This document shows, in pieces, positions 23,718 to 38,266 of a stretch of 64,000 nt of DNA. The DNA comes from an uncultured Acidobacteriia bacterium (GTDB lineage: Bacteria > Acidobacteriota > Terriglobia > Bryobacterales > Bryobacteraceae). The stretch is from contig CAIVPR010000122.1 of assembly GCA_903907865.1 (NCBI GenBank), positions 1-64,000 on the forward strand. The letters are read 5' to 3'. Under the pieces are notes generated by a model that was not told where the DNA came from, did no database searches, and saw only the letters and a program-made list of their open reading frames with translations. How positions within the stretch are numbered: position 1 is the first letter of the stretch; each line of letters begins with the position of its first letter. The position numbers were made by a program, and so were the translations under genes.

Positions 23718-26610
23718 GGTCCTGATCTTCGCGGGTGTTTCGACGGTTGGGCTCTTCGGGCAGGCCATCGAATTCAATCGGGATATCCGACCGATCCTCT
23801 CAGACCGTTGCTACACCTGCCACGGTCCGTCGTCCACCACGCGCAAGTCCAAGCTGCGTTTCGATATCGAGGCGGCGGCGAAGCAGGACATGGGCGGGCA
23901 TTTCGCCATCGTTCCAGGCGATCCGGCGAAGAGCACGATCCTGGCAAGGATCTCGGCGGGCGAAAAGCCAATGCGCATGCCGCCGCTTGCGTCCGGTCCA
24001 GCGCTGACGGAGAAAGAGATCGGGCTGATCCGGGCTTGGATCCAGCAGGGCGCGGTCTGGGAGAAGCACTGGTCATTCCTGCCGCCCAAGCGCGCGGAAA
24101 CGCCGCCGGGCGTGAACCCCATCGACCATTTCGTCCGGGCGCGCCTTGCCAAAGAGGGCTTGCAGCCTTCGCCGGAAGCCGACCGGGCGACGCTGATCCG
24201 CCGCGTTACGTTGGATCTCACCGGCCTGCCACCAACGTTGGCCGAAATCGACGCGTTTCTCGCCGACCGGTCCCCAACGGCATATGAGAAAGTAGTGGAC
24301 CGCCTGCTAACCTCGCCGCGCTATGGCGAACGGATGGCGATCCGGTGGCTCGACGCCGCCCGCTATGCCGATACCAACGGCTACCAGACGGACGGCGAGC
24401 GCCAGATGTGGCGCTGGCGGGACTGGGTGATCGAGGCCTTCAATCGCAACATGCCCTACGACAGGTTTGCGGTCGAGCAACTCGCGGGCGATCTGCTGCC
24501 GCGTCCGACGTTGGACCAGCGCATCGCTACGGGCTTCAACCGCAACCACCGCGGCAACGGCGAGGGTGGCATCGTGCCGGAGGAATACGCGGTCGAGTAT
24601 GTGATCGACCGGGTGGATACGACTTCGACGGTCTTCCTCGGCCTCACCGCGGGGTGTGCCCGCTGCCACGACCACAAGTACGACCCCATCAGCCAGAAGG
24701 AGTATTACCAGCTTTACGCCTACTTCAACAGCATCCCTGAGCGCGGGAATGCCCAAAAGTACGGCAATTCGCCCCCTCTGATGAAGGCCCCGACGCCGGA
24801 ACAACAGAAGGAGTTGGCTCGGTTGCAGGGGATTGCGGAGTCTCGGGAAGTCGAGTTCAACCGTAATGCGTCTCTGTCTACCCCAAACCTTCCCGCCTTG
24901 CAATGGGCCGACCCACGCGGAGTCGCATTCGAACTTCCAACCGCTGAGTCTTTCGATGGCACTCGGATTTTGGAAGAGGGCAACGTCGCGAATTTCGGTT
25001 TCCAGGACCGGTTTACGATTTCGGTGTGGATCGACCCCGTCGCGCCCGACGGCGTCATTGTCAGTCGTGCCAAGGGAGAGGAGGAACCACCGGGATGGTC
25101 GCTCGTCTTGAAAGACGGAAAGATCCAGGCAAATCTGGTGTTGCGTTGGCTTGATGACGCGGGTCGGGTGGAGACACGGGACCCCATCGAACTGAACAAG
25201 CGGCACCACATCGCTTTCACTTACGACGGTTCCCGTTACGCGGCGGGCATGAAGATTTACGTGGATGGCGTCGAGCGTCCGTTGACGATCAACCTCGATC
25301 AGATCAACCAGAACTTCGCTGTAGCCGAGCCTTTGCGCGTTGGCAGCCGTTTCCGTGGCACCATCGAGAACCTTCGAATCTACAGCAAGGCCATGGACGC
25401 GGGCGCAGTCAAAGCAATGGCCGAGCCGCGCTCGATTGAGTCGCTCCGCCTGCTGTTCTTGTCGCACAACCCTGCGTGGAACCGGGTTCTTGACGCCCGC
25501 GAGGAGCGCGACCGCTATGCCGACACGATTCCAACGGTCATGGTGATGGAGGAACTGCCGTCCCCCAAGCCCGCGTTCGTGTTGAATCGTGGATCGTACG
25601 AACGTCCCGGTGCGCAGGTGGATCGGAACGTGCCCGCCGCCTTGCCGCCGATTCCGCCGGGAGTACGGCAGGACAGGCTGGCACTGGCGAGGTGGATCGC
25701 AAGTCCCGATAACCCGCTCACCGCGCGGGTAGCCGTAAACCGATTCTGGCAGATGTACTTTGGCATGGGCATCGTAAAGACCGTCGAGGATTTCGGCTCC
25801 CAAGGCGAATGGCCCAGCCACCCCGAACTGTTGGACTGGCTTGCCACGGAATTCGTCCACACAGGCTGGGATGTCAAGGCGATGCAGAAGACCATCGTGA
25901 TGTCGGCGACCTACCGGCAGTCGTCCAAGGCGTCGCCCGAATTGGTGAAGCGCGACCCGGAGAACCGACTCATGGCGCGGGGCCCGCGTTTGCGGCTTCC
26001 CGCCGAAATGGTCCGGGACCAAGCGCTGCTCGTATCCGGTCTCCTCGTGGAGAAGCTGGGCGGACCGTCCGTGAAGCCCTACCAGCCCGCCGGACTCTGG
26101 AAGGAACTCTCGGGGGCCGAGGATTACAAGGCTGATTCCGGCGAGGCGCTATATCGCCGTGGCCTGTACACGTTCTGGAAGCGCGCCGTGCCGCCGCCGA
26201 TGATGGCGAATTTCGATTCCGCCGGCCGCGAGGCGTGCACCGTCCGCGAGAGCCGCACCAATACGCCCTTGCAGGCGCTTGACCTGATGAACGATGTCAC
26301 TTTCATCGAAGCGGCCCGCAACCTGGGCCAGCGGATGATGCGCGAGGGCGGTGCGATGCCGGATTCCCGGTTGGCATATGGATTCCGGCTTGCCACCGGT
26401 CGCCGACCCGATGCGCGCGTAACCGGCATCCTACTGAATAGCTACAACTACAACTTGGACCGCTTCCGCACCGATCCCGCTGCCGCCGAGAAGCTGCTCG
26501 CTCAAGGTGAAAGCAAACGCGACCCTTCGCTCGATACCGCGCAACTGGCAGCCAACGCGACCGTCGCCAGTCTGATCCTGAATCTCGACGAGGTGGTGAC
26601 GGTCCAATGA
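23701..26610 (+). CDS. Cytochrome c-like (PSD1) / DUF1549 / LamG / DUF1553 protein
   Basis: 969 residues, exported (signal peptide ending near FGQA). An N-terminal haem-binding site CYTCHG (about residue 37) belongs to the planctomycete cytochrome c domain. A DUF1549 domain follows (about 130-345), then a concanavalin/LamG-like domain (about 400-567, [18 protein letters not shown] to [11 protein letters not shown]), then DUF1553 (about 660-930, [20 protein letters not shown]). These proteins occur in pairs with DUF1501 proteins, as here, and are thought to act on polysaccharides or other extracellular substrates. The biochemical reaction is unknown. It overlaps the DUF1501 gene by ATGA. Confidence 0.92.
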
Positions 26611-28010
26611 TCGACCTCCATCCCTCACGTCGGCAAGTGCTGCGGTCTGCCTTGGGTGCCGCCGCGTTCGCGTCGCTGGCCCGAGCCGAAGGCAACGACG
26701 GCATTCCCCATTTTCCGCCGACCGCCAAACGCGTCATCTATCTGTTTCAGTCGGGTGCGCCTTCGCAGCTCGACCTCTTCGACTACAAGCCGAAGCTGGC
26801 CGGCCTGCGCGCTACGGAACTCCCCGATTCCATTCGCCAGGGTCAGCGCCTCACGGGTATGACGGCGACGCAGGCGAGTTTTCCCGTCGCGCCGCCCATC
26901 TTTCAGTTCGCCCAACACGGAAAGTCGGGTGCCTGGGTCAGCGACCTGATGCCCCACACGGCCAAGGTTGTCGATGACCTCTGCTTCATCAAATCGATGA
27001 ACACGGAGCAGATCAACCACGATCCGGCCGTCACATTCCTGCAGACCGGCTTCCAATTGGCTGGCCGCCCCAGCATCGGCGCGTGGCTGTCATACGGGCT
27101 TGGCAGCTTGAATAAGGACCTGCCCGCGTTTGTCGTCATGATCTCGCAAGGGTCGGGCAACGCGGCCGACCAACCTCTGTATGATCGGCTTTGGGGCAGC
27201 GGCTTCCTGCCCAGTCGCTACCAAGGCGTCAAGTTCCGATCCGGGGCCGATCCGGTCTTGTATCTTTCGAATCCGGATGGCATTGATGCCCCGATGCGCC
27301 GTCGCTATCTGGACGACTTGGCCGCCCTGAACGACCTCAACCTGAAGGAGTACAACGACCCCGAGATTGCCACGCGCACCGCCCAGTACGAGATGGCGTT
27401 CAAGATGCAGACCTCGGTGCCGGATTTGACGGATCTTTCCAAGGAGTCGGAACGAACGTTCCAGATGTACGGCCCGGATTCGCGCAAGCCGGGCACCTTC
27501 GCGGCGAACTGCCTGCTGGCCCGTCGGCTGGCAGAGCGCGATGTCCGGTTCATCCAACTTTTCCACCGCGGCTGGGACCAGCACACGAACCTGCCGAAAC
27601 AGATCCGGGGCCAGGCGTCGGACACAGACCAAGCCTCGGCGGCACTGATTCAGGACCTGAAGGAACGGGGAATGCTGAAGGACACGCTGGTGGTTTGGGG
27701 CGGGGAATTCGGACGCACTGTGTATTCGCAGGGGAAGCTGACCGAAACCGACTACGGGCGCGACCACCATCCGCGCTGTTTCACCGTGTGGATGGCTGGC
27801 GGCGGTGTGAAGCCGGGGCTGACTTTCGGGGAGAGTGACGATTTCTCGTACAACATCGTCCGGGACCCGGTGGATGTTCATGACCTGCACGCCACCATCC
27901 TGCGGACGCTTGGGATCGACCATACCAAGCTGACATTCAAGTTCCAAGGCCGGCATTTTCGGCTGACGGATGTCAAGGGGCGGATCGTGAACGAGGTTTT
28001 GACAGCCTGA
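26607..28010 (+). CDS. DUF1501 family protein, Tat-exported
   Basis: 467 residues. The N-terminus contains [19 protein letters not shown], a twin-arginine signal. The body is a DUF1501 domain of alkaline-phosphatase-like fold: [35 protein letters not shown], and [10 protein letters not shown] with a later DHHPR segment supply probable metal ligands. DUF1501 genes typically follow DUF1549/DUF1553 genes, as here with a 4-base overlap. The shared role is likely periplasmic and concerned with sulfated or complex polymers, but this is inference. Confidence 0.92.
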
Positions 28011-28043
28011 GCTGCGGTGTTCTAGACTGAAGGCAGGAACTCC

Positions 28044-28370
28044 GTGAACGACACGCAAATTCTCGCCATCGCCATTATGGTCGCCGCACTATTGGCTGGC
28101 ACTCTGTTCAACAACAACCGGTTGACAGACCTCAAAGAACTCTTCCGCGCCGAGTTGAAGGCGACGGAGGCAAGCCTTAAGCTAAGTATTGGAACACTCG
28201 AAATGAGCGTGGACAAGCGCTTCGACGAGGTGGACAGGCGCTTCGACGCCATGCAAGCCAGTAACGACAAAGCGTTTCAATCCATCGACAACAAGCTCGA
28301 CACGCTGCTTCACATGTTGGCCGACCACAATTCCCGCATCACAAAACTCGAGGAACGGGCAAGCGCCTAG
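28044..28370 (+). CDS. Small membrane-anchored coiled-coil protein
   Basis: 108 residues, GTG start with AGGCAGGAA upstream. One N-terminal hydrophobic helix (ILAIAIMVAALLAGTLF) is followed by about 80 residues of heptad-rich, charged sequence (SVDKRFDEVDRRFDAMQ) that should form a coiled coil. No family is recognised. It is followed by a strong hairpin at 28388-28412. Confidence 0.65.
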   Translation: MNDTQILAIAIMVAALLAGTLFNNNRLTDLKELFRAELKATEASLKLSIGTLEMSVDKRFDEVDRRFDAMQASNDKAFQSIDNKLDTLLHMLADHNSRITKLEERASA

Positions 28371-28387
28371 TTTCAGATAAACTTCGT

Positions 28388-28412
28388 GGGCGGTGCCTAC
28401 CAGGCACCGCCC
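28388..28412. terminator. Perfect hairpin between convergent genes
   Basis: GGGCGGTGCCT (28388-28398) and AGGCACCGCCC (28402-28412) form an 11-bp perfect stem with a 3-base loop. It sits between the stops of two convergent genes (28370 and 28424). There is no T-tract, so it may be a bidirectional terminator aided by Rho or a 3' stabilising structure. Confidence 0.6.
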
Positions 28413-28423
28413 GCGCCAACAAA

Positions 28424-28948
28424 CTACCGGCCTTCGCTGGAGGGAGGCACAAGCCCCTTCGCCCGCATATACACGCCCATCGCGCCATAAACTTCGTTGG
28501 CGTGGACCACGATCCCATAGAGCGCGTTGATCCGCGGCTGTTGTCCGCGACCCGCAGCAACCGACTCCATTGCGTTGGCATCGGTCAAGGCGTCAAAAGA
28601 CTTGTCGCACTCGTCGAACGACTCCTTCAAGCCCGCCACCAAATCCGCTTTTGACGTCTTGCCGGTCGCCGAGCTCGGCTTCCGCGCCCCGTTGATTGCA
28701 GAGCATGTGCCCATCTGATTGGCGATGTGGGCCACGCGCTGCCCGAACGTCTCGATGCCTTCCGCGGGCTTGAAGCCGTAGGCGTCTTCCGGCATCTTTT
28801 CGGCCGCCTTCACGAAGTTTGTCTTGATGCGGCTGTACGCACCCTTCAGGATGGCGGACGGCGTGGTTGGCGGGCCAGCCTGGGCCATGAGTGCAATCGT
28901 TCCAACCACTGCCGCAACCATGGCGGCTAATGCGATCTTCTTGTTCAT
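28424..28948 (-). CDS. Exported DinB-like protein
   Basis: 174 residues with a signal peptide (MNKKIALAAMVAAVVGTIAL, cleavage near MAQA). The mature part has the DinB-like bundle pattern: AAEKMPEDAYGFKPAEGIET, HIANQMGTC and a late VVHANEVYGAM. Only some of the usual metal-binding His are recognisable. Secreted DinB proteins are common in soil bacteria but functionally unknown. The start is fixed by AAGGAG 8 bases before the ATG. Confidence 0.8.
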   Translation of the reverse strand: MNKKIALAAMVAAVVGTIALMAQAGPPTTPSAILKGAYSRIKTNFVKAAEKMPEDAYGFKPAEGIETFGQRVAHIANQMGTCSAINGARKPSSATGKTSKADLVAGLKESFDECDKSFDALTDANAMESVAAGRGQQPRINALYGIVVHANEVYGAMGVYMRAKGLVPPSSEGR

Positions 28949-29037
28949 TCGAGTGTTCTCCTTCAAGGACCTCCAGACTAGCTTATCCCGTTCCCGGTGC
29001 TGCATTCCCGAACCGAACGTGGAATCATGGAAGATTC

Positions 29038-31284
29038 ATGATCCGCTCGTTCCTCGTCTTCATCTTGGTTGCCGAACTCGCAGCGCAAACCCAGCCACCC
29101 GCCGTCACGGGTAAGGTCGTGGACGCGAGAGGCGGGGAAGCGCTCTCCAACGTCGCGGTCGCCATCGAAAACGGCCCGCGTACGGTCACTGGTCCCACAG
29201 GCACCTTCGAATTCGCCACCGTCGAGCCCGGGGACCACACCCTCGTAGTCTCCACCGTCGGTTACCACTTGGTCAAACGGCCGTTCCGGTCCACTCCGGG
29301 CGAGCCGCAACACTTCGAAATCGTTCTGAGCCCCGATACCCTCCGCCGCACCGACACCGTTGTCGTCACCGCAGGCCCCTTCGAGACACTGCGGCAGGAC
29401 AGCCCCTCCGCCATCAGCCTGTCTGCAAACGACGTTAAGAACCTGGCTTCCGTGCTTGCCGACGACCCTCTGCGCGCCGTCCAGAGCCTGCCCGGCGTCA
29501 GTTCCAACAACGATTTCGAGGCCCGCTTCTCACTGCGCGGCGCGTCCTACAACCGGATCGGCCTGTATCTCGACGATGTCATGCTCCACCAGCCATTTCA
29601 AATGCTTGCCGGACAAAACATCACCGGATCGGGCGCGGCGTTCAACGGCGGGATGGTTGAAAATCTCGAACTGCACGAGGGTGCCTATCCCGAGCGTTTC
29701 GCCGACCGCAGCGCCGGCATCCTCGACGTCCACACCCGCGAAGGGGGCCGCGACGCACTTTCCATTCGTGCCGAAGCCAGCATGTCGAACGCGGGAGTAA
29801 CTTTGGAAGGCCCGCTCGGGCACAACAAGCGTGGATCCTGGCTGGTCGGCACCCGCAAGAGCTACCTGCAGTACATCGTCGGCAGAATTACCACCGACAC
29901 CTCGCTGGTATTTGGCCTTGAGGATGTTCAGGGCCGCTTGACGTACGATCTGACGCCCAAAAACCAGCTCTGGCTCTACCTTCTGGAAAGCTATTCTTCC
30001 CTCAACAGGACCAAGAGCAGCCTGGGCATCAACTCGCTGGCGAAGGCTGGATACGACTATTCCCTCGTGAACCTCGGTTGGCGCGCGACGCCTTCGACGA
30101 AACTGGCAATCGTCACCCACGCGGCATGGATGCGCGAGAAATACGACAACCTCAACCCCAACGCGCTCCGGCTCGGCGACGGGTTTTACGGCGAATGGGT
30201 GGCGAACTCGACCGCGACGTGGAACCAGACACCCTCGGCCACCATGGACGCCGGAGTCTCCGCCCGCCGCCTTCGTGACGAAGGCTTTTCCGCCCAGTTC
30301 CAGTCCCTGACCCTCCCGCCGCGGCTGCTCGACACCCACCGTGGTACGGGCGTCCTGTCCGGCGAATTCGTACAGGAGTCTTGGACAGGACTTTCCGGTC
30401 GTCTGCACCTTTCCGCCGGAGTCAGGGGCGACCATCTTTCGACCGGGGGCGCTACGACTAGTACGCCGCAGGCATCCGCCGCGTTCATCGTGGCACCAGC
30501 CACCCGGATCCAACTCGGCTGGGGCCAATACGCCCAGTTTCCCGAGCTCTCCGTGCTCACTTCGCCGTTCGGGAGCACCCGCCTACTGCCGATTCGCTCC
30601 AACCACGTAATCGCGGCACTTGAACAGCGTCTGAGCGAGCGCCTCCGACTTCGCGCCGAGTTCTACAACCGGGCCGACCGGGACCTCCCTTGGCAACCGT
30701 TCGCCGATCCACGCCTACCCGTCGGCGCCGCATCCGTCCCCGTGCTCAGCAGTACCTATGCCAACTCCGTGCGGGGCTATGCGCGCGGACTTGAAGTGTT
30801 TGTTCAAAGAAGCAGCGCAAACCGTTTCAATGGCTGGGTTTCCTACGCATTTGGAAGGACGGGAATGCGCGAAGGAATCACGAAGTCCCGGTTCCCTGCG
30901 GATTACGACCAGACGCATACGGTGAACATATACGGCGGCTACCGTCTTCGACCCAGCGTCAATGTGAGCGTCCATTCCAGCTACGGCAGCGGTTTCCCAA
31001 TCCCCGCCTACCTCCGGCTGAGCGGCAACACCTACTTCCTCGGCCCGCAGCGCGACCAACTCCGTCTCGACTACTACCAGCGCACCGATCTGCGAATCAA
31101 CAAGTCTTGGACCAAGCGCAAGTCCAAGATCACCCTCTACGGGGAGTTGGTGAACATGACCAACCGCACCAACCGCATCTTCGACAGCCTGAACAGTTAC
31201 AATACGAAGACAGGGCAAACCTCGATCACGCTGGACTCAATGTTGCCGATCCTCCCGTCGGTCGGCATCGTGTTCGAAAAGTAG
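29038..31284 (+). CDS. TonB-dependent receptor with carboxypeptidase-regulatory-like domain
   Basis: 748 residues, outer membrane. A signal peptide ends near LAAQ. A CarbopepD_reg-like beta domain follows (about 22-105, [17 protein letters not shown]), then a TonB plug domain (about 110-230, [36 protein letters not shown]), then a 22-strand barrel region to the C-terminus. It probably imports an oligosaccharide, siderophore or similar ligand. No TonB-box could be assigned with certainty. No substrate-processing gene adjoins it. Confidence 0.9.
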
Positions 31285-31305
31285 AGGTCCGCCCATGTTC
31301 TGTAG

Positions 31306-31311
31306 TACAAT
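31306..31311 (+). promoter_or_regulatory. Possible -10 box of rplS
   Basis: TACAAT, 17 bases before the rplS ATG, in the short gap after the TonB receptor gene. It predicts a leader of about 10 nt. No -35 box is evident. Confidence 0.35.
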
Positions 31312-31328
31312 TGAAAATTAGGCCCGAG

Positions 31329-31679
31329 ATGCAAAATTCGCTGTTAACCAAGTACAACCAGAAGAACCTCCGCACCACCCCTCACCCGACGATCCGTCCG
31401 GGCGACACGGTCCGTGTTCACGTCAAGATCAAGGAAGGCGACAAAGAGCGTCTCCAGGCTTTCGAAGGTGTTTTCATCGCGCGCAACCACAGCGGCATCA
31501 GCGAGACCATCACGGTCCGCAAGATGAGCTTCGGCCACGGTGTCGAGCGCATCTTCCCGCTGCACGCGAAGATCGTGGACCACATCGACATGGTTCGCAC
31601 CGGTCGCGTCCGCCGCGCCAAGCTGTACTACCTGCGCGCCCTGCGTGGCAAGGCTGCCCGTTTGAAGGAACGCACATAG
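31329..31679 (+). CDS. rplS: 50S ribosomal protein L19
   Basis: 116 residues, the usual length. The conserved [50 protein letters not shown] and [14 protein letters not shown] segments are all present. L19 sits at the 30S-50S interface. In many bacteria it follows rimM and trmD; here it follows a TonB receptor and precedes rnhB. Confidence 0.97.
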
Positions 31680-31725
31680 TCCCGTCGCGGTAATGGCCGG
31701 GAGGACCCAGCAGGATTGAATCCCC

Positions 31726-32442
31726 ATGGGGCATACCGAGAAAGACCGTACCGCAAAAGGCCGTCCCGTACAAGACCGTACAGTTCCAAAATGGAAATGT
31801 GAGGCGACCCACGAGCGCGAACTCCGCGCTCGTGGGTTTTCTTTTGTGGCTGGCGCGGACGAGGTCGGACGAGGCTCCCTCTTCGGTGCCGTCGTGGCCG
31901 GAGCTGTAATTCTGTCCCCCGACAACCCGATCCGGGGTTTGGACGACAGCAAGCGCTTGGAGCCCGAACAGCGGGAAACGCTGGCGGAGCGCATCCGGGA
32001 GCGATCCGTCTCATGGTCGGTTGCGGCGGTTGACGCGGCTACCATTGACCGGATCAACATCTACGAGGCCTCCAGGCTCGCCATGCGGAACGCCGTTTTG
32101 AGCCTTAGACCGCGCCCTGATTTCGTTCTGGTTGATGCTGTGCCGCTGGATCTCCCCATTCCGCAGGAACCCTTGATCAAAGGCGACATGCGCTGTCACG
32201 CCATAGCAGCCGCGTCCATCATCGCCAAGGTGCACCGCGACGCGCTGATGCGCGAGTGGGACCGCTTCTATCCCGAGTACGGCCTCGCCAACCATAAGGG
32301 CTACCACGCGCCGGAGCATATCGCGGCAATCGAGCGAATCGGCCCTACCCCGCTGCATAGGCACAGTTTCGAGCCTGTACGCCGCCACGCCCCGTTTTCC
32401 TGTTGGGGCACCAGCCAACAAATGGAGATGTTCGCGGACTGA
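31726..32442 (+). CDS. rnhB: Ribonuclease HII
   Basis: Cleaves the RNA strand of RNA-DNA hybrids and single ribonucleotides in DNA. Catalytic acidic residues lie in AGADEVGRGSLFG, VLVDAVPLD and the HAIAAASIIAKVHRD region. The ATG at 31726 is the only ATG/GTG/TTG start before GTG 31846, which would cut off ERELRARGFSF, a family-typical segment. The first 23 residues (KDRTAKGRPVQDRT) are repetitive and unlike other RNases HII. Codons 28-40 encode a perfect terminator-like hairpin (31808-31845), an unusual dual use of sequence. Confidence 0.92.
   Translation: MGHTEKDRTAKGRPVQDRTVPKWKCEATHERELRARGFSFVAGADEVGRGSLFGAVVAGAVILSPDNPIRGLDDSKRLEPEQRETLAERIRERSVSWSVAAVDAATIDRINIYEASRLAMRNAVLSLRPRPDFVLVDAVPLDLPIPQEPLIKGDMRCHAIAAASIIAKVHRDALMREWDRFYPEYGLANHKGYHAPEHIAAIERIGPTPLHRHSFEPVRRHAPFSCWGTSQQMEMFAD
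31808..31845 (+). terminator. Intrinsic-terminator hairpin inside the rnhB coding sequence
   Basis: CCCACGAGCGCG (31808-31819) pairs perfectly with CGCGCTCGTGGG (31825-31836) around a 5-base loop and is followed at once by TTTTCTTTT (31837-31845). This is a textbook rho-independent terminator, placed about 130 bases after the rplS stop but within the first third of the rnhB reading frame. Confidence 0.75.
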
Positions 32443-32445
32443 CGC

Positions 32446-32820
32446 ATGAGCGAAGACCAACAGGAATTCCACGACCAGCTTCCAGTCACCGATGTGGTTG
32501 GCGAACCCGTGCATGGCACCGTAGCCGAGCCCGAGAGCAAGCCGGCGATCTCGATTCCGTCTTGGTACCGCCATGTTTCGACGGTCATATTCATCATTTT
32601 CTGCTTCGAGATGGGGTTGTTCTTGGTGGTCTACCCGTGGATCGATGCTTGGGGCAACAACTATTTCTCCATGATCGTGCCCGGACCCTACCTGATGGCG
32701 TGGCGTCAGATGTGGAACAGCAGCTACTTCCGCGGTGCTGTCAGCGGAGTCGGGCTGATCAACATCTGGATTGCCATCCAGGAAGTGTTCGGCCTTGTCC
32801 CGCGTCGCGGCAAGGGGTAG
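32446..32820 (+). CDS. Small membrane protein, unrecognised
   Basis: 124 residues, beginning 3 bases after the rnhB stop. An acidic N-terminal 35 residues precede two hydrophobic segments (TVIFIIFCFEMGLFLVVYPW and a second around GVGLINIWIAIQEVFGL). Conserved aromatic residues (WIDAWGNNYF) lie between them. No family recognised. The position between rnhB and the Cas6-like gene suggests a shared transcript. Confidence 0.7.
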   Translation: MSEDQQEFHDQLPVTDVVGEPVHGTVAEPESKPAISIPSWYRHVSTVIFIIFCFEMGLFLVVYPWIDAWGNNYFSMIVPGPYLMAWRQMWNSSYFRGAVSGVGLINIWIAIQEVFGLVPRRGKG

Positions 32821-32829
32821 TATCAAGTT

Positions 32830-33717
32830 GTGGATTTCCGCCTTTACCCGCTGCGCTTGACATTTCGCGCGACCGAAAGGCTCGTGTTTCCCCCGGGCAA
32901 GGCTGCAAACGTGCTGCGCGGTGCGTTGGGGATGTCATTGCGCGACCTCGCCTGCGACCCCGGCTGCAGCAACGCCAAGACTTGTTCCCGCGCTGCCGCC
33001 TGCCGCTATGCGCAGCTTTTCGAGCCCTCGGCGCACCTGCCGGGGCCCAGTGGCTTGCGCGACTGGCCTCGTCCGTTCGTGATCCGGGCGGCGCACTTGG
33101 ACGGCGACAGGCTCGTTACTGGTGACCAATTCCATCTCGACGTCCATCTTTTCCGCGACGATGCGGACTCCGCCCGAATCTTGGTCAAGGCATTTGCCCG
33201 TCTGGCCGCGAATGGATTTGGGCCGGGGGAGGGCAAGGCTCTGCTACAGTCGGTCCGCCTTTTGCATACCGCCAGCGACTGGGAACCGTTTGTGATCGAC
33301 CTGCGACCGACACCGCACACCGGGCGCATCCGGGTGGACTTCCAGACCCCGACGGAACTGAAACCCTTGGCACCGGGTCGGGATCCCGATTTCGCAACGC
33401 TGTTCGCCCGAATCCGTGATCGCGTGAGCACTCTGCGGGCTTGCTATGGTGCCGGGGCGCTCAATATTGAATTTAAAGCGATGGGCGAGATAGCCGACGG
33501 CATCAAGTTGATTCAATGTGAGATAGGCAATCAAGAAGTCGTTCGTCGCAGTTCGCGAACAGGCCAGAGTCACTCCATCGGCGGCTTCACCGGTCATGCC
33601 GAGTACGAAGGTGACCTCGGTCCTTTTTTGCCATTTCTGGAAGCCGCTCGCTGGACGGGCGTCGGCAGCAAGTGTGTCTGGGGCAACGGCCAGATTTCGG
33701 TCCGTCGGCTCGGATAG
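32830..33717 (+). CDS. Cas6-like RAMP endoribonuclease family protein, orphan
   Basis: 295 residues starting at GTG. The C-terminal half matches the Cas6 C-terminal family: IGGFTGHAEYEGDLGPFLPF, then ARWTGVGSKCVWGNGQISV with the glycine-rich RAMP loop. The N-terminal half has a Cys cluster (CDPGC, TC, AC within residues 43-60), possibly metal-binding. Cas6 cleaves CRISPR repeat RNA, but there is no CRISPR array or other cas gene in the window. Either it serves a distant array or has another RNA target. It lies 9 bases after a small membrane gene in the rplS-rnhB direction. Confidence 0.78.
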   Translation: MDFRLYPLRLTFRATERLVFPPGKAANVLRGALGMSLRDLACDPGCSNAKTCSRAAACRYAQLFEPSAHLPGPSGLRDWPRPFVIRAAHLDGDRLVTGDQFHLDVHLFRDDADSARILVKAFARLAANGFGPGEGKALLQSVRLLHTASDWEPFVIDLRPTPHTGRIRVDFQTPTELKPLAPGRDPDFATLFARIRDRVSTLRACYGAGALNIEFKAMGEIADGIKLIQCEIGNQEVVRRSSRTGQSHSIGGFTGHAEYEGDLGPFLPFLEAARWTGVGSKCVWGNGQISVRRLG

Positions 33718-33787
33718 GGCGGGCCCGAGGTTGGCTGCGCTTCTGCGGAGAACAAAGCCTTGCTTGGGTTGAATAACTGCGCAGGCT

Positions 33788-33885
33788 CGAACAAACACTC
33801 CCTTGCGGTCGTGGCTCGGCAACATACTGATTCCGCCGAGCCGCGACCGCGAGGGAGCGTTTGTTCGGGGCACCGAAAACGCACC
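33788..33885. repeat. Dispersed repeat, copies 2 and 3 as an inverted pair (REPIN-like hairpin)
   Basis: The left arm at 33788-33820 and right arm at 33835-33867 are 33-base inverted repeats matching at 30 of 33 positions, separated by 14 bases. The right arm and its flanks match copy 1 at 17909-17965. The element lies between the convergent Cas6-like and epimerase genes. Two of the three differences would still pair as G-U in plus-strand RNA, so a long hairpin is preserved. It resembles REP/REPIN or MITE-type non-autonomous elements; no associated transposase is present. Confidence 0.8.
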
Positions 33886-33923
33886 TTGGCGCGCTTCTCC
33901 AGAACCAACGCTCGAACCCATCC

Positions 33924-34847
33924 CTACCGGATTCCCCACTGGAACGGGTCCGCGTCGTCGAGAATCAGCTGCGTCTCGGCATTGACGAACGCCGCTCCAC
34001 GGATCCGGGGCCGCACCACGCCGCCCACCACCGTCACAGACGCCTCGAAAGCGCTCCCGATGACGCTTTCCTGCCGCCAAACCTGACCCTCGGCGAGCTT
34101 TCCGTCGGCGTACAGGCACGCCACCTTGGCGCTGGTGCCCGTCCCGCAGGGCGACCGGTCCCACGCCTTGCCCGGACACAGCACGAAGTTGCGCGAATCC
34201 GCCGCTTCGCCGACCGGCGGCCCGAACACTTCCACATGGTCCACGTCGGGATACCCCTGATCGTTCACGGCTTGGCGGATGGCCCAGGCGTAGTCGGTCA
34301 GGTGCTCCAGATTGGCGACGGTCAGCTCCACCGGTGCTCCCATCGTCAGGAAGAACCAGTTCCCTCCCCAAGCCACGTCGCCCACCACCTCGCCGTAGCC
34401 CGGAACCCCGACCCGCACCCCTGCGGCTTGGCGGTAGCTAGCCACGTTGGTGATCGTAACGTCGCCTTCCGCGTGTAACTCCGCCTCCACAAGGCCCACG
34501 GGCGTCTCGATCCGATGGACGCCAGGCTCGATCCGCCCCAGGTGCCGCAAGGTCGCCATCAGCCCGATCGTCCCATGCCCGCACATGCCGAGGAAACCCA
34601 CATTGTTGAAGAAGATCACGCCCGCGGCGCAGGCCGGGTCGACGGGTTCACACAGCAGCGCCCCCACCATCGCGTCGTTCCCGCGCGGCTCGTTCACAAT
34701 GGCCGACCGGAAGTGGTCGAGACGCTCCCGGAACACTTCGAGTCGCTCCTTCATTGAGCCTGCGCCGAGGTCCGGGCCGCCCGCCACCACGACCCGGGTC
34801 GGCTCGCCGGCGGTGTGTGAGTCAATCGCATGAATCCGAATTGGCAT
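33924..34847 (-). CDS. 4-Hydroxyproline 2-epimerase (proline racemase family)
   Basis: 307 residues. It converts trans-4-hydroxy-L-proline to cis-4-hydroxy-D-proline by a two-base mechanism. Both catalytic Cys are present: MCGHGT (Cys89, with His91) and DRSPCGTGTSAK (Cys234, after Asp230), which fits hydroxyproline epimerase rather than the Cys-to-Thr dehydratases. MPIRIHAIDSHTAGEPTRVV at the start is typical. The neighbouring hydroxyproline catabolic genes on the other strand support the assignment. Its start codon overlaps the start of the divergent oxidoreductase by two bases. Confidence 0.9.
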   Translation of the reverse strand: MPIRIHAIDSHTAGEPTRVVVAGGPDLGAGSMKERLEVFRERLDHFRSAIVNEPRGNDAMVGALLCEPVDPACAAGVIFFNNVGFLGMCGHGTIGLMATLRHLGRIEPGVHRIETPVGLVEAELHAEGDVTITNVASYRQAAGVRVGVPGYGEVVGDVAWGGNWFFLTMGAPVELTVANLEHLTDYAWAIRQAVNDQGYPDVDHVEVFGPPVGEAADSRNFVLCPGKAWDRSPCGTGTSAKVACLYADGKLAEGQVWRQESVIGSAFEASVTVVGGVVRPRIRGAAFVNAETQLILDDADPFQWGIR

Positions 34848-35979
34848 GTGTAACAATGATCGCTTGTTCGACGCGATCCACTCGTTTGACGTGATCCTGG
34901 TCGGAGCGGGTATCGTGGGCGCCGCGTGTGCGCGCGAACTCGCGGATTCCGGCTTGAAGGTTGCTGTTTGTCACGACTCCGACACTGTCGGGGCTGGCGC
35001 GACGGCCGCCGGGATGGGCCATATCGCGGTGATGGACGATTCGGACGCCCAGTTCGCTCTCACGAACTACTCGCAGAGCCTCTGGTGGGAGTTGGCAGGC
35101 ACTCTGCCGCCGGAGGCCGAATTCGCCGGTTGCGGGTCGCTTTGGGTGGCCGCCGACGACGAGGAGATGGCCGAAGTCCACCGCAAGAGCGAATACTATT
35201 CGGCACGCGGGGTCGCCGTGGACGTGCTGGATTCGGGCGGAGTCGCCAAGGCCGAGCCCAACCTTCGGCGCGGCTTGGCTGGAGGTCTACGGCTGCCTGC
35301 CGACGCGGTTTCCTACGCTCCTGCCGTCGCCCGCAAGTTGTTGACTGGCATCCAGTTGCTGCGCGGGCGGGTGGTCTCGGCAACCTCGGATGGGATTGAA
35401 TTTGCTTCCGGCGAAAGCTACTTTGCCGGTGCGGTCGTGCTGGCCACCGGGGCCGATTTGCCGCGCCTCGCGCCCGAACTTCCTGTGCGTCCCCGCAAGG
35501 GCCACCTGCTGATCACGGACCGCTATCCGGGCTACCTCAACCACCAGATCATCGAGTTGGGGTACCTGAAAAGCGCCCATTCGGAGGACGCCGATTCGGT
35601 CGCCTTCAACGTCCAGCCTAGGGTGACGGGGCAGTTGCTGATCGGCTCCTCGCGCCAGCTCGGCGTGGACCATGCCGACATTGACCATGCCATCCTGCGC
35701 CGCATGCTGGCCCGCGCGGTCGAGTACATGCCGGGTCTGGCGTCGTTGAACGGCATCCGCGCTTGGACGGGATTCCGGGCCTCGACACCCGACAATCTGC
35801 CCCTGATAGGCCTCCGTCCGGGCCATCGGAGCTTGTACGTCGCCTCGGGACACGAAGGTTTGGGGATTTCGACGTCTCTCGGGACAGCCAAACTGCTGGC
35901 GGATGCGATGCTGGGCCGTCCGTCCGCCATTCCCCGCGAGCCCTACGATCCCTCCAGGAGTTTCAACCACCATGCCTGA
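34846..35979 (+). CDS. FAD-dependent D-amino-acid (D-hydroxyproline) dehydrogenase subunit
   Basis: 377 residues of the DAO (glycine/D-amino-acid oxidase) family. The N-terminal FAD site is FDVILVGAGIVGAACARELA, and the C-terminal GLRPGHRSLYVASGHEGLGI is typical. With the [2Fe-2S] protein and the NAD(P)/FAD protein downstream it matches multi-subunit D-hydroxyproline dehydrogenases, oxidising cis-4-hydroxy-D-proline to 1-pyrroline-4-hydroxy-2-carboxylate. The ATG at 34846 leaves no room for a divergent promoter; TTG 34864 or GTG 34891 are possible real starts. It overlaps the next gene by 8 bases. Confidence 0.85.
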   Translation: MCNNDRLFDAIHSFDVILVGAGIVGAACARELADSGLKVAVCHDSDTVGAGATAAGMGHIAVMDDSDAQFALTNYSQSLWWELAGTLPPEAEFAGCGSLWVAADDEEMAEVHRKSEYYSARGVAVDVLDSGGVAKAEPNLRRGLAGGLRLPADAVSYAPAVARKLLTGIQLLRGRVVSATSDGIEFASGESYFAGAVVLATGADLPRLAPELPVRPRKGHLLITDRYPGYLNHQIIELGYLKSAHSEDADSVAFNVQPRVTGQLLIGSSRQLGVDHADIDHAILRRMLARAVEYMPGLASLNGIRAWTGFRASTPDNLPLIGLRPGHRSLYVASGHEGLGISTSLGTAKLLADAMLGRPSAIPREPYDPSRSFNHHA

Positions 35980-36205
35980 AATCCGGGTGGACGGGATGTT
36001 GGTCAACGCCGCCGAAGGCGTCTCACTGGCCGTGGCGCTTCTGTCGGCGGGACGCACCCGCTTCCGCACCTCGCTTTCGGGTGAACCCCGCGCCGCCGTC
36101 TGCGGAATGGGCGTCTGCATGGAGTGCCGCGTCACCATCGACGGCCAGCCGCATCGACTTGCCTGCCAGGTCCAAGTGCGGGAAGGCATTGAGGTACGCA
36201 CATGA
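35972..36205 (+). CDS. Small [2Fe-2S] ferredoxin-like subunit of D-hydroxyproline dehydrogenase
   Basis: 77 residues. Four Cys in the pattern of a plant-type [2Fe-2S] protein: CGMGVCMEC (Cys44, 49, 52) and Cys65. Its size and position between two flavoprotein genes match the small subunit of multi-subunit D-hydroxyproline/opine-type dehydrogenases, where it transfers electrons between flavin centres. It overlaps the gene before by 8 bases and the gene after by ATGA (36202). Confidence 0.88.
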   Translation: MPEIRVDGMLVNAAEGVSLAVALLSAGRTRFRTSLSGEPRAAVCGMGVCMECRVTIDGQPHRLACQVQVREGIEVRT

Positions 36206-37356
36206 TCGTTGTGGTGGGTGCCGGACCGGCCGGAATCGCCGCCGCGCTGGCGGTTCAAGAATGCGGCAAGGCGGTCACGGTGGTGGACGAGAACCCGTCG
36301 GCTGGCGGCCAGATCTGGCGCGGCGATCCAACGCATCGCTGGGTTGCCCGTTTCCGTGCTTTCAACATCCCGTTGATTTCGGGCGTTCGGGTGGTTTGGG
36401 GCTATCCGGCGGCGCGCACACTCGTTTTGGAAGACGCCGTAGGGGCCCGACGGCTCGCGTACGACAAGCTGGTCGTCGCCGTTGGCTCGCCCGAGATCTT
36501 CCTGCCGTTTCCCGGTTGGACGCTGCCGGGAGTCTTCGGGGCGGGCGGGTTGCAGGCGCTGGTGAAGTCGGGGTTGCCGGTGCGGGGGAAGAACGTGGTG
36601 GTCGCCGGGACCGGTCCGCTGCTGTTGGCGGTGGCTGCGTCGCTACGGAAGAAGGGGGCGAACATCCGGTTGATCGCGGAACAGACGCCTGCAGCTCTGC
36701 TTTGGCCCTTTGCGAAACAGCTTTCAGGAAGAGCGTCCAAGTTGTTGCAAGGGATAGGCTTGGCGTGGGACCTTGCGGGTATTCCGTACGCTCCGGCGTC
36801 TTGGGTAACGGCGGCGCAGGGGGATGGGCGGTTGCAGCGCATCGTGCTGAACCGGCGGGGCACCCTCGTCACCGAGGACTGCGACTACCTCGCCGTCGGT
36901 TTCGGATTGCGCCCTGCCACGGAGTTGGCCGCTATCATGGCGGGACCCGACACCATCGTGGCGGGCACGGGCGACGCCGACCTGTCCTTGCTGGAAGGCC
37001 GGATTGCCGGGTACACGGCAGCCGGAGATTTGGAAAAAGCTCGGGGACTGGAACCAGAGCGCGACCAAGCCCGTACCTTCGCGGCCTCAATCGACCGTAC
37101 CTTCGCCGTGCGCGACGAACTCCGCCAGTTGGCGGACTCCGGCACCATCATCTGCCGCTGCGAAGACGTCCCGCTCGGTCGGCTCGAAGGCAAGACCTGC
37201 TTCCGCGACGCCAAACTTCACACCCGCTGCGGCATGGGTGCCTGCCAAGGGCGGGTCTGCGGTCCGGCTCTCGAGTTCCTTTTTGGCTGGCACGGCGCCT
37301 CGCCCCGTCCACCCATCTTCCCGGCCCGCGTCGGCAGCCTGTTGTCCGAAGGATAA
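36202..37356 (+). CDS. NAD(P)/FAD-dependent oxidoreductase subunit with C-terminal Fe-S domain
   Basis: 384 residues. The FAD site at the N-terminus is IVVVGAGPAGIAAALAVQE and a second dinucleotide site is NVVVAGTGPLLLAVAAS. The C-terminal about 40 residues have a Cys pattern (CRCED, then TRCGMGACQGRVCG) like BFD/SoxA-type Fe-S domains. This domain layout is that of the large subunit of opine/D-hydroxyproline dehydrogenases. It starts by ATGA overlap with the ferredoxin gene, so all three subunits should be made in proportion. Confidence 0.87.
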   Translation: MIVVVGAGPAGIAAALAVQECGKAVTVVDENPSAGGQIWRGDPTHRWVARFRAFNIPLISGVRVVWGYPAARTLVLEDAVGARRLAYDKLVVAVGSPEIFLPFPGWTLPGVFGAGGLQALVKSGLPVRGKNVVVAGTGPLLLAVAASLRKKGANIRLIAEQTPAALLWPFAKQLSGRASKLLQGIGLAWDLAGIPYAPASWVTAAQGDGRLQRIVLNRRGTLVTEDCDYLAVGFGLRPATELAAIMAGPDTIVAGTGDADLSLLEGRIAGYTAAGDLEKARGLEPERDQARTFAASIDRTFAVRDELRQLADSGTIICRCEDVPLGRLEGKTCFRDAKLHTRCGMGACQGRVCGPALEFLFGWHGASPRPPIFPARVGSLLSEG

Positions 37357-37357
37357 T
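37352..37357 (+). promoter_or_regulatory. -10-like hexamer 6 nt before a start codon
   Basis: GATAAT ends 6 bases before the ATG at 37364. It overlaps the TAA stop of the upstream gene, so it may be coincidental. Confidence 0.2.
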
Positions 37358-37363
37358 GGCTGC

Positions 37364-38266
37364 ATGGCCACCTCGATCTGGCGCGGCGTGATTCCCGCCA
37401 TCACCACCCCTTTTCTCGAAGACATGACCGTCGACCATCCGTTTCTCGCGCGCCACGTGAAGTGGCTGGTGGAAAACGGCTGCACCGGGGTGGTCGCGCT
37501 CGGATCGTTGGGGGAAGGGGCCACCCTGACCTTCGAGGAGAAGCGCGCGGTTCTCGAAACTTGCGTGGCTGCCATAGGGGACCACGCCACGGTGATCGCC
37601 GGCGTTTCGGCGCTCAGCACCGACGAGGCCGTCCGAATCGCCAAAATGGCGAAGGCTGCGGGTTGCCACGGCCTGATGGTGCTGCCGCCGTACGTCTACG
37701 TCGGAGACTGGCGCGAGATGCGCGCTCATGTCTCCGCCGTCCTCGACGCGACCAACCTGCCGTCGATGCTCTACAACAATCCCATCGCCTACAAGGTCGA
37801 CTTTCTGCCGCACCAAGTGGCCGAATTGATGGATCTGCACCCCGCAACCATGGTTGCGATCAAGGAGTCTTCCGCCGATGTGCGCCGGATTGCGGCATTG
37901 CGCGCACTGGTGGGTGAGCGGCTCGAAATCCTCTGCGGGGTGGACGACCTGATCGTGGAGGCTGTATACACGGGAGCGACCGGCTGGATCGCCGGCTTGG
38001 TGAACGCCTTCCCGCGCGAGTCTGTCGACCTTTTCAACCACGCCTTGGCTGGCGAAAAGGATCAAGCGGCGGCCATCTACCAGTGGTTCCTGCCGTTGCT
38101 GCGCATGGACGTGGTGCCGAAGTTCGTTCAACTGATCAAGCTGGTGCAGGAATTGATGGGGATTGGCAACCGCCGCGTCCGTGCGCCGAGGTTGGTGATC
38201 GAGGGCGGGGAACTCGCGGACGCCGAGGCGACTTTGGTAACAGCCTTGCGGATAAAATCTAGGTAA
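37364..38266 (+). CDS. DapA-family lyase, probable 1-pyrroline-4-hydroxy-2-carboxylate deaminase
   Basis: 300 residues, TIM-barrel of the dihydrodipicolinate synthase/N-acetylneuraminate lyase family. The Schiff-base Lys is in VAIKESS (Lys167) and the catalytic Tyr in MLYNNP (Tyr137). Its place right after the D-hydroxyproline dehydrogenase genes points to the deaminase that turns 1-pyrroline-4-hydroxy-2-carboxylate into alpha-ketoglutarate semialdehyde. The dehydrogenase for the last step is not in this window. Other DapA-family activities cannot be excluded from sequence alone. Confidence 0.85.
   Translation: MATSIWRGVIPAITTPFLEDMTVDHPFLARHVKWLVENGCTGVVALGSLGEGATLTFEEKRAVLETCVAAIGDHATVIAGVSALSTDEAVRIAKMAKAAGCHGLMVLPPYVYVGDWREMRAHVSAVLDATNLPSMLYNNPIAYKVDFLPHQVAELMDLHPATMVAIKESSADVRRIAALRALVGERLEILCGVDDLIVEAVYTGATGWIAGLVNAFPRESVDLFNHALAGEKDQAAAIYQWFLPLLRMDVVPKFVQLIKLVQELMGIGNRRVRAPRLVIEGGELADAEATLVTALRIKSR
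38253..38258 (+). promoter_or_regulatory. -10-like hexamer before the beta-propeller gene
   Basis: TAAAAT ends 10 bases before the ATG at 38269, in the 3' end of the previous gene. A separate short-leader transcript is possible. Confidence 0.25.

Follow-up and report, generated by a model that had tools for sequence, protein, structure and literature searches.

A predicted intrinsic terminator within early codons of rnhB, downstream of rplS, in an uncultured acidobacterium

The window analysed here is a stretch of 64,000 nucleotides (positions 1 to 64,000 of contig CAIVPR010000122.1, assembly GCA_903907865.1) from an uncultured Acidobacteriia bacterium of the family Bryobacteraceae. Within it, the genes for ribosomal protein L19 (rplS) and ribonuclease HII (rnhB) are followed by a small open reading frame, ORF124, in the same direction (Table 1). 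RNase HII, which removes ribonucleotides from DNA, should be required at much lower levels than L19. The gene order is conserved among relatives: rplS and rnhB were found together in all 56 loci compared (L001-L056, some genomes being represented twice), and relatives of rplS, rnhB and ORF124 occurred together in 45 of 45 family loci (L002-L046). The ORF124 relatives from these 45 loci share 28-61% identity with it over the matched part, and searches of Pfam and NCBIfam gave no match for ORF124. The rnhB gene itself is present in 18 of 19 genus genomes and in 80 of 81 genomes of a family sample, this genome being counted in both. Judged from this gene order, a terminator in early rnhB would sit inside a conserved, co-directional rplS-rnhB-ORF124 cluster.

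Table 1. Features of the rplS-rnhB-ORF124 cluster, including the predicted terminator (positions in the window).
Feature	Position	Strand	Basis or remark
Protein with carboxypeptidase-regulatory domains and weak TonB-plug match, upstream of rplS	28891-31284	+	PF13715, E 7.6e-13; Plug 23 bits, cut-off 23.9
rplS (50S ribosomal protein L19), gene upstream of hairpin	31329-31679	+	TIGR01024, E 8.4e-43, and PF01245, E 1.1e-44, both on 31350-31676; start ATG 31329 by reading
rnhB (ribonuclease HII), intact reading frame holding the hairpin	31726-32442	+	PF01351, E 4.5e-35; NF000594, 254.7 bits, cut-off 243
Variable linker with GACCGTAC-like units	31744-31781	+	Not conserved (sister-species alignment); no repeat family found
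Predicted terminator stem, 5' arm	31807-31819	+	Inverted repeat; RNA fold
Loop AACTC	31820-31824	+	RNA fold
Predicted terminator stem, 3' arm	31825-31837	+	Inverted repeat; RNA fold
T-tract TTTTCTTTT	31837-31845	+	Ends in codons TTT TCT TTT (F-S-F), uncommon in the genome
ORF124 (small protein, 124 residues), third gene of the cluster	32446-32820	+	Relative after rnhB in 45/45 family loci

An inverted-repeat search identified a perfect stem of 13 pairs with a 5-nt loop at 31807-31837 (+). The 12-bp hairpin, 5-base loop and T-rich tail that the initial annotation had placed at 31808-31845 were all found there: 31808-31819 and 31825-31836 form 12 perfect pairs, A31807-T31837 adds the thirteenth, and one G-U pair extends the stem to 14 pairs. 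The T-tract adjoins the stem directly and has T at eight of its nine positions, interrupted by one C. It contains TTT twice together with TCT, codons that account for only 0.18 of phenylalanine codons and 0.04 of serine codons in this genome. The RNA of 31797-31850 folds with -31.7 kcal/mol (z -5.85), and none of 200 shuffled sequences folded as well. Thus, the element combines the features expected of an intrinsic terminator, namely a stable, G+C-rich hairpin, a short loop and a U-tract directly after the stem. The proposal that it could end the rplS transcript is borne out to the extent that it is a very good predicted intrinsic terminator, in the right place and within translated codons of rnhB.

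The hairpin segment specifies residues T28-F40 of the 238-residue RnhB. A TGA codon at 31717 lies in frame upstream of the rnhB start, and the CCCATGG block around the start at 31726 is kept in an alignment with both sister species (G013 and G016, the two nearest species). Reading of the sequence found no in-frame ATG, GTG or TTG between 31726 and a GTG at 31846, confirming for these three codons the earlier claim that this interval holds no start codon. Initiation at GTG 31846 would leave the hairpin non-coding; this alternative was rejected, because the residues encoded before the GTG are conserved, and in both sister species the GTG is replaced by GTT. Conservation shows that the hairpin segment is translated, the residues that it encodes being partly conserved across the family. 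WKC precedes the segment in 16 of 18 genus loci, the pattern ExxLRxRG(F/Y) holds within the genus and more loosely within the family, and a Glu, an Arg and a Gly-Phe or Gly-Tyr just before the AGxDEVGRG motif are widespread in the family, while ERELRARGF itself varies.

The region between the rnhB start and the hairpin behaves differently. In the alignment with the sister species, the start block and the hairpin block are conserved and the linker between them is not, and the length and sequence of the leader differ between this locus and the two sister species. The linker holds two exact copies of the 8-mer GACCGTAC and a partial third, so that its portrayal as 60 repetitive bases with three units was overstated, and a repeat search found no direct-repeat family in the linker before the hairpin. 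The suggestion that these repeats form a leader that tunes termination also loses ground, the repeats not being conserved in the sister species. The predicted fold of the leader at 31680-31810 is unremarkable (z -0.64; 50 of 200 shuffles as good). As a separate observation from the inverted-repeat search, CCGCAAAAG in the leader (31751-31759) can pair with CTTTTGTGG (31841-31849), which lies across the T-tract; the leader half, CCGCAAAAG, is absent from both sister species in the alignment.

The distribution of the hairpin was examined in a family set in which rnhB was found in 96 distinct genomes. One of these, G024, gave a match without the N-terminus and was dropped, leaving 95 loci, of which 84 were anchored automatically and 11, ending too early for the anchor motif, were scanned separately (two of the 11, L222 and L238, end before the position of the T-tract). 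With a strong hairpin defined as at least 13 pairs, one mismatch allowed, plus a T-tract, only three of the 95 loci carry one, namely this locus and those of the two sister species, and none was found in the other 92. The hairpin is restricted to one small clade, and a hairpin conserved throughout the family was rejected. The initial annotation had named as counter-evidence a set of RnhB homologues in which the N-terminal residues align and the hairpin never forms; it is no family trait, and outside this clade the alignment comes close to that picture. Both sister species differ from this locus by a synonymous GCT-to-GCC change that turns an A-T pair of the stem into an A.C mismatch, and their 47-base fold has -24.3 kcal/mol versus -29.5 kcal/mol here. 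G013 retains the codons TTT TCT TTT unchanged; G016 has TTC in place of the last TTT. The covariation that had been proposed as a check gives no support, the single differing stem pair being broken rather than compensated; with no more than three hairpin-bearing sequences and one variable pair in the stem, such a test is not meaningful. When one mismatch was allowed, weaker hairpins with a T-tract also appeared at a similar place in L038 (9 pairs) and L216 (8 pairs). The corresponding 60 bases of L250 give a fold of lower energy but have no T-tract; in that comparison, 76 of 86 loci were anchored. A search for recurrence in other phyla, which covered 69 distant loci out of 70 (L123 being without the motif), turned up no perfect stem of at least 8 pairs with a T-tract. 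In L010, of the same genus, a 9-pair hairpin (GGGGCTTCG/CGAAGCCCC) lies in the variable rnhB linker, about 60-85 bases before a conserved RnhB glycine, and is followed by A-rich rather than T-rich sequence.

A hairpin of this kind might reflect nothing but the residues encoded: ERELRARGF is prone to GAGCGCG/CGCGC hairpins, phenylalanine codons supply runs of T, and translation would mask the resulting structure, which would have no function. The strong form in only 3 of 95 loci, the weaker hairpins with a T-tract at a similar place in L038 and L216, and a perfect stem that lies one synonymous base away from the sister-species form are what such a coincidence would lead one to expect. However, recoding almost never yields such a hairpin. 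When only the 20-residue segment was recoded, stems of at least 11 pairs with a T-tract arose in 10 of 60,000 sequences and a stem of 13 in 3 of 60,000, and five synonymous recodings of 1,307 genes with the codon use of the genome produced one stem of 8 pairs and none of 9 or more.

The hairpin is also the sole strict site inside a gene in sense orientation in the part of the genome scanned, which likewise argues against coincidence. A background scan of 1.107 Mb of the same genome (852 genes, 17 sites) was extended to 1.75 Mb, in which perfect stems of at least 8 pairs followed by at least 6 T in 9 bases were sought, with 1,307 open reading frames called by a simple in-house script, so that the class counts are approximate; the earlier list of 852 genes, from the same script, lacked rplS, and sites classed as intergenic may include missed genes. 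The extended scan gave 26 sites, comprising 20 intergenic, 2 at gene edges, 2 intragenic in antisense orientation and 2 intragenic in sense orientation. Requiring at least 9 pairs left 17 intergenic sites, 2 at gene edges and 1 intragenic in sense orientation, the last being the rnhB hairpin, the only site of its class in 1.75 Mb; the two edge sites are one hairpin counted on both strands. A looser scan of 25000-38000 returned 9 terminator-like sites against 10.9 +/- 3.3 in shuffled sequence, thus no excess; among these the rnhB hairpin leads with 14 pairs, followed by a site with 9.

Synonymous changes bear on the same question. In comparisons covering 7 genes with G013 and 17 genes with G016, two sister species that are not independent of each other, approximately 41-42% of the codons for identical residues differ from those of this genome, yet the 13 hairpin codons show one synonymous change in G013 and two in G016. 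Codon-specific rates predict 6.8 changes (P 0.0003 for G013 and 0.0046 for G016), placing the segment 6th among 734 overlapping windows for G013 and 17th among 1,977 for G016, in the lowest 1%. The plain count of changes is weak evidence: for G013, one change or fewer is seen in 5.2% of windows overall and in 2.1% of those early in genes; for G016, two or fewer are seen in 10.4% overall and in 21.8% of those early in genes, so that among the early-gene windows of G016 the segment is not unusual at all. Windows as conserved as this one, or more so, occur in other genes, as coincidence would allow, and are not known to hold a hairpin; when the best window of each gene is ranked, rnhB comes third among the 7 genes compared with G013 and seventh among the 17 compared with G016, rplS and others being more extreme. 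Synonymous conservation of the segment is therefore high, not unique, and its codon-specific calibration is mixed. On the other hand, the uncommon codons TTT TCT TTT have been kept in one sister species, and in all but one base in the other, against the usual turnover. The segment is perhaps under selection as nucleic acid, and a functionless by-product of codon choice is unlikely.

A genuine, clade-specific intrinsic terminator in codons 28-40 of rnhB, at which most rplS transcripts end and a minority reach rnhB, is probably the correct description of this element of the rplS-rnhB-ORF124 cluster. RNA polymerase arriving from rplS would meet the element approximately 130-165 nt past the end of rplS, having travelled 80-120 nt beyond the rnhB start codon. 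Most polymerases would stop there, releasing rplS mRNA, and the minority that read through would make rnhB-ORF124 mRNA, so that one promoter could serve a ribosomal protein together with a repair enzyme made in lower amount. Ribosomes loaded at 31726 may raise readthrough somewhat, and terminated transcripts on which ribosomes had been loaded there would have no in-frame stop codon and would need rescue by tmRNA, for which the genome contains a gene (166.9 bits). We infer termination in vivo, its efficiency, the ratio of rplS to rnhB expression and nonstop rescue from this arrangement. The initial annotation had suggested a possible switch that keeps rnhB low beside rplS; the part of that idea that fits is a partial terminator, and both sister species retain the hairpin and T-tract with little synonymous change, but the element is no family trait.

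The switch itself, an attenuator that terminates only when no ribosome is close behind the polymerase, so that rnhB output would track translation initiation or growth state, appears improbable. Measured from the start codon, the hairpin begins in frame at 80 nt and the T-tract finishes at 120 nt, at the edge of the first 100 bp, where terminators elude the ribosome, and conservation of the start and hairpin blocks without the linker would suit such a mechanism. Relevant measurements come from E. coli, in a study by Li and colleagues (PMC4824070): terminators further into the coding sequence were repressed more strongly by translation, which favors gating, but a Rho-independent terminator placed 30 bp downstream of a start codon lost only approximately 10% of its efficiency to translation, which does not. 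Drawing on previous studies, the authors argue that the polymerase is caught by the first ribosome within 100-200 nt and that truncated messages, having no stop codon, trigger rescue (PMC4824070). In addition, the leader varies in length and sequence among this locus and the two sister species, and its fold is not notable, both of which count against gating. Because the end of the T-tract, at 120 nt, lies at the edge of the escape zone, strong termination with some ribosomal relief is to be expected if this organism resembles E. coli. Another study lists six phyla with uncoupled, 'runaway' transcription, and Acidobacteriota does not appear in that list (PMC13323073). A more elaborate proposal is similarly doubtful, in which the terminator is dual-coded, occupying the same 40 bases as RnhB residues, and is kept by synonymous-site selection, rnhB expression needs a closely following ribosome, each terminated transcript loaded at the rnhB start passes a 40-residue nonstop peptide to tmRNA, and rnhB acts as a sensor of transcription-translation coupling.

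A dispersed repeat was rejected, as there is no second copy in the genome: a DNA search of this genome with the 125 bases of 31726-31850 returned 10 matches, namely the locus itself, its inverted repeat on the opposite strand, and eight short matches at E 0.125 or worse. A known RNA family was likewise rejected, since an Rfam search of 31000-32500 at E 1 returned nothing. A perfect 13-bp inverted repeat could also act on DNA as a binding site, or in RNA during processing or as a stability element, instead of as a terminator. Such a role is very improbable here: the sister species retain the T-tract beside the repeat (with one C for T in G016), and neither a second copy in the genome nor an Rfam match was found.

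The preferred reading, a partial terminator in early rnhB, has several counterparts. In E. coli, the rpsU-T1-dnaG terminator and the frd-ampC attenuator likewise stand between an abundant and a scarce gene, and ribosome loading affects readthrough at the ampC attenuator; the hairpins of both precede the downstream coding sequence, whereas the rnhB hairpin lies within it. A tR2 terminator engineered into an E. coli coding region, within its first 100 bp, is alike in being Rho-independent, in lying soon after the start, in largely escaping ribosomes and in yielding nonstop mRNA; it is synthetic and lies 30 bp after the start, whereas the rnhB hairpin is natural, lies 80-120 nt after it and occupies partly conserved codons (PMC4824070). 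In Methanococcus maripaludis, internal-operon terminators (ioTTS) that lie between genes for ribosomal proteins and genes for RNA polymerase provide a likeness in outcome, in that partial readthrough after a ribosomal-protein gene lowers expression of a scarcer downstream gene, an effect that is only predicted here; the archaeal sites are intergenic and consist of a U-tract with dependence on aCPSF1, in contrast to a bacterial hairpin in downstream coding sequence (PMC10450193). Finally, many E. coli RNA 3' ends lie inside open reading frames or 5' UTRs, and a significant number are predicted to result from premature termination; those ends were mapped experimentally, whereas the rnhB terminator is predicted, of the intrinsic type and from an acidobacterium (PMC7815308).

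No earlier description of a terminator inside rnhB was found in the openly available full-text literature. Coding-region terminators and partial terminators after ribosomal-protein genes are already known, and the rnhB case is a new, dual-coded example. If the reading is correct, a natural terminator sits in codons without harm to the protein, which would permit direct tests of how terminators early in coding regions escape ribosomes outside model species, and terminator searches that skip coding sequence can miss functional sites.

The surroundings of the cluster are less uniform than the cluster itself. The neighbor with carboxypeptidase-regulatory domains upstream of rplS is also present in both sister species, and in 2 of 45 other loci, for which at most approximately 1.1 kb of upstream sequence was compared. 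In 17 of 46 loci, the upstream frame ends in a putative TrmD C-terminus. The differing upstream side suggests that the rplS cluster has been rearranged in this clade. At a distance of 17 bases upstream of the start codon of rplS, the three species share a TACAAT box, which resembles a promoter consensus and may be a promoter of rplS itself; a promoter scan did not list it. On the downstream side, a gene for a protein with a Cas6-like domain (PF10040, E 2.4e-12) directly follows ORF124 at 32830-33717 (+); a repeat search of 32440-36000 found no direct repeats of at least 20 bases, and thus no CRISPR array was seen in that interval.
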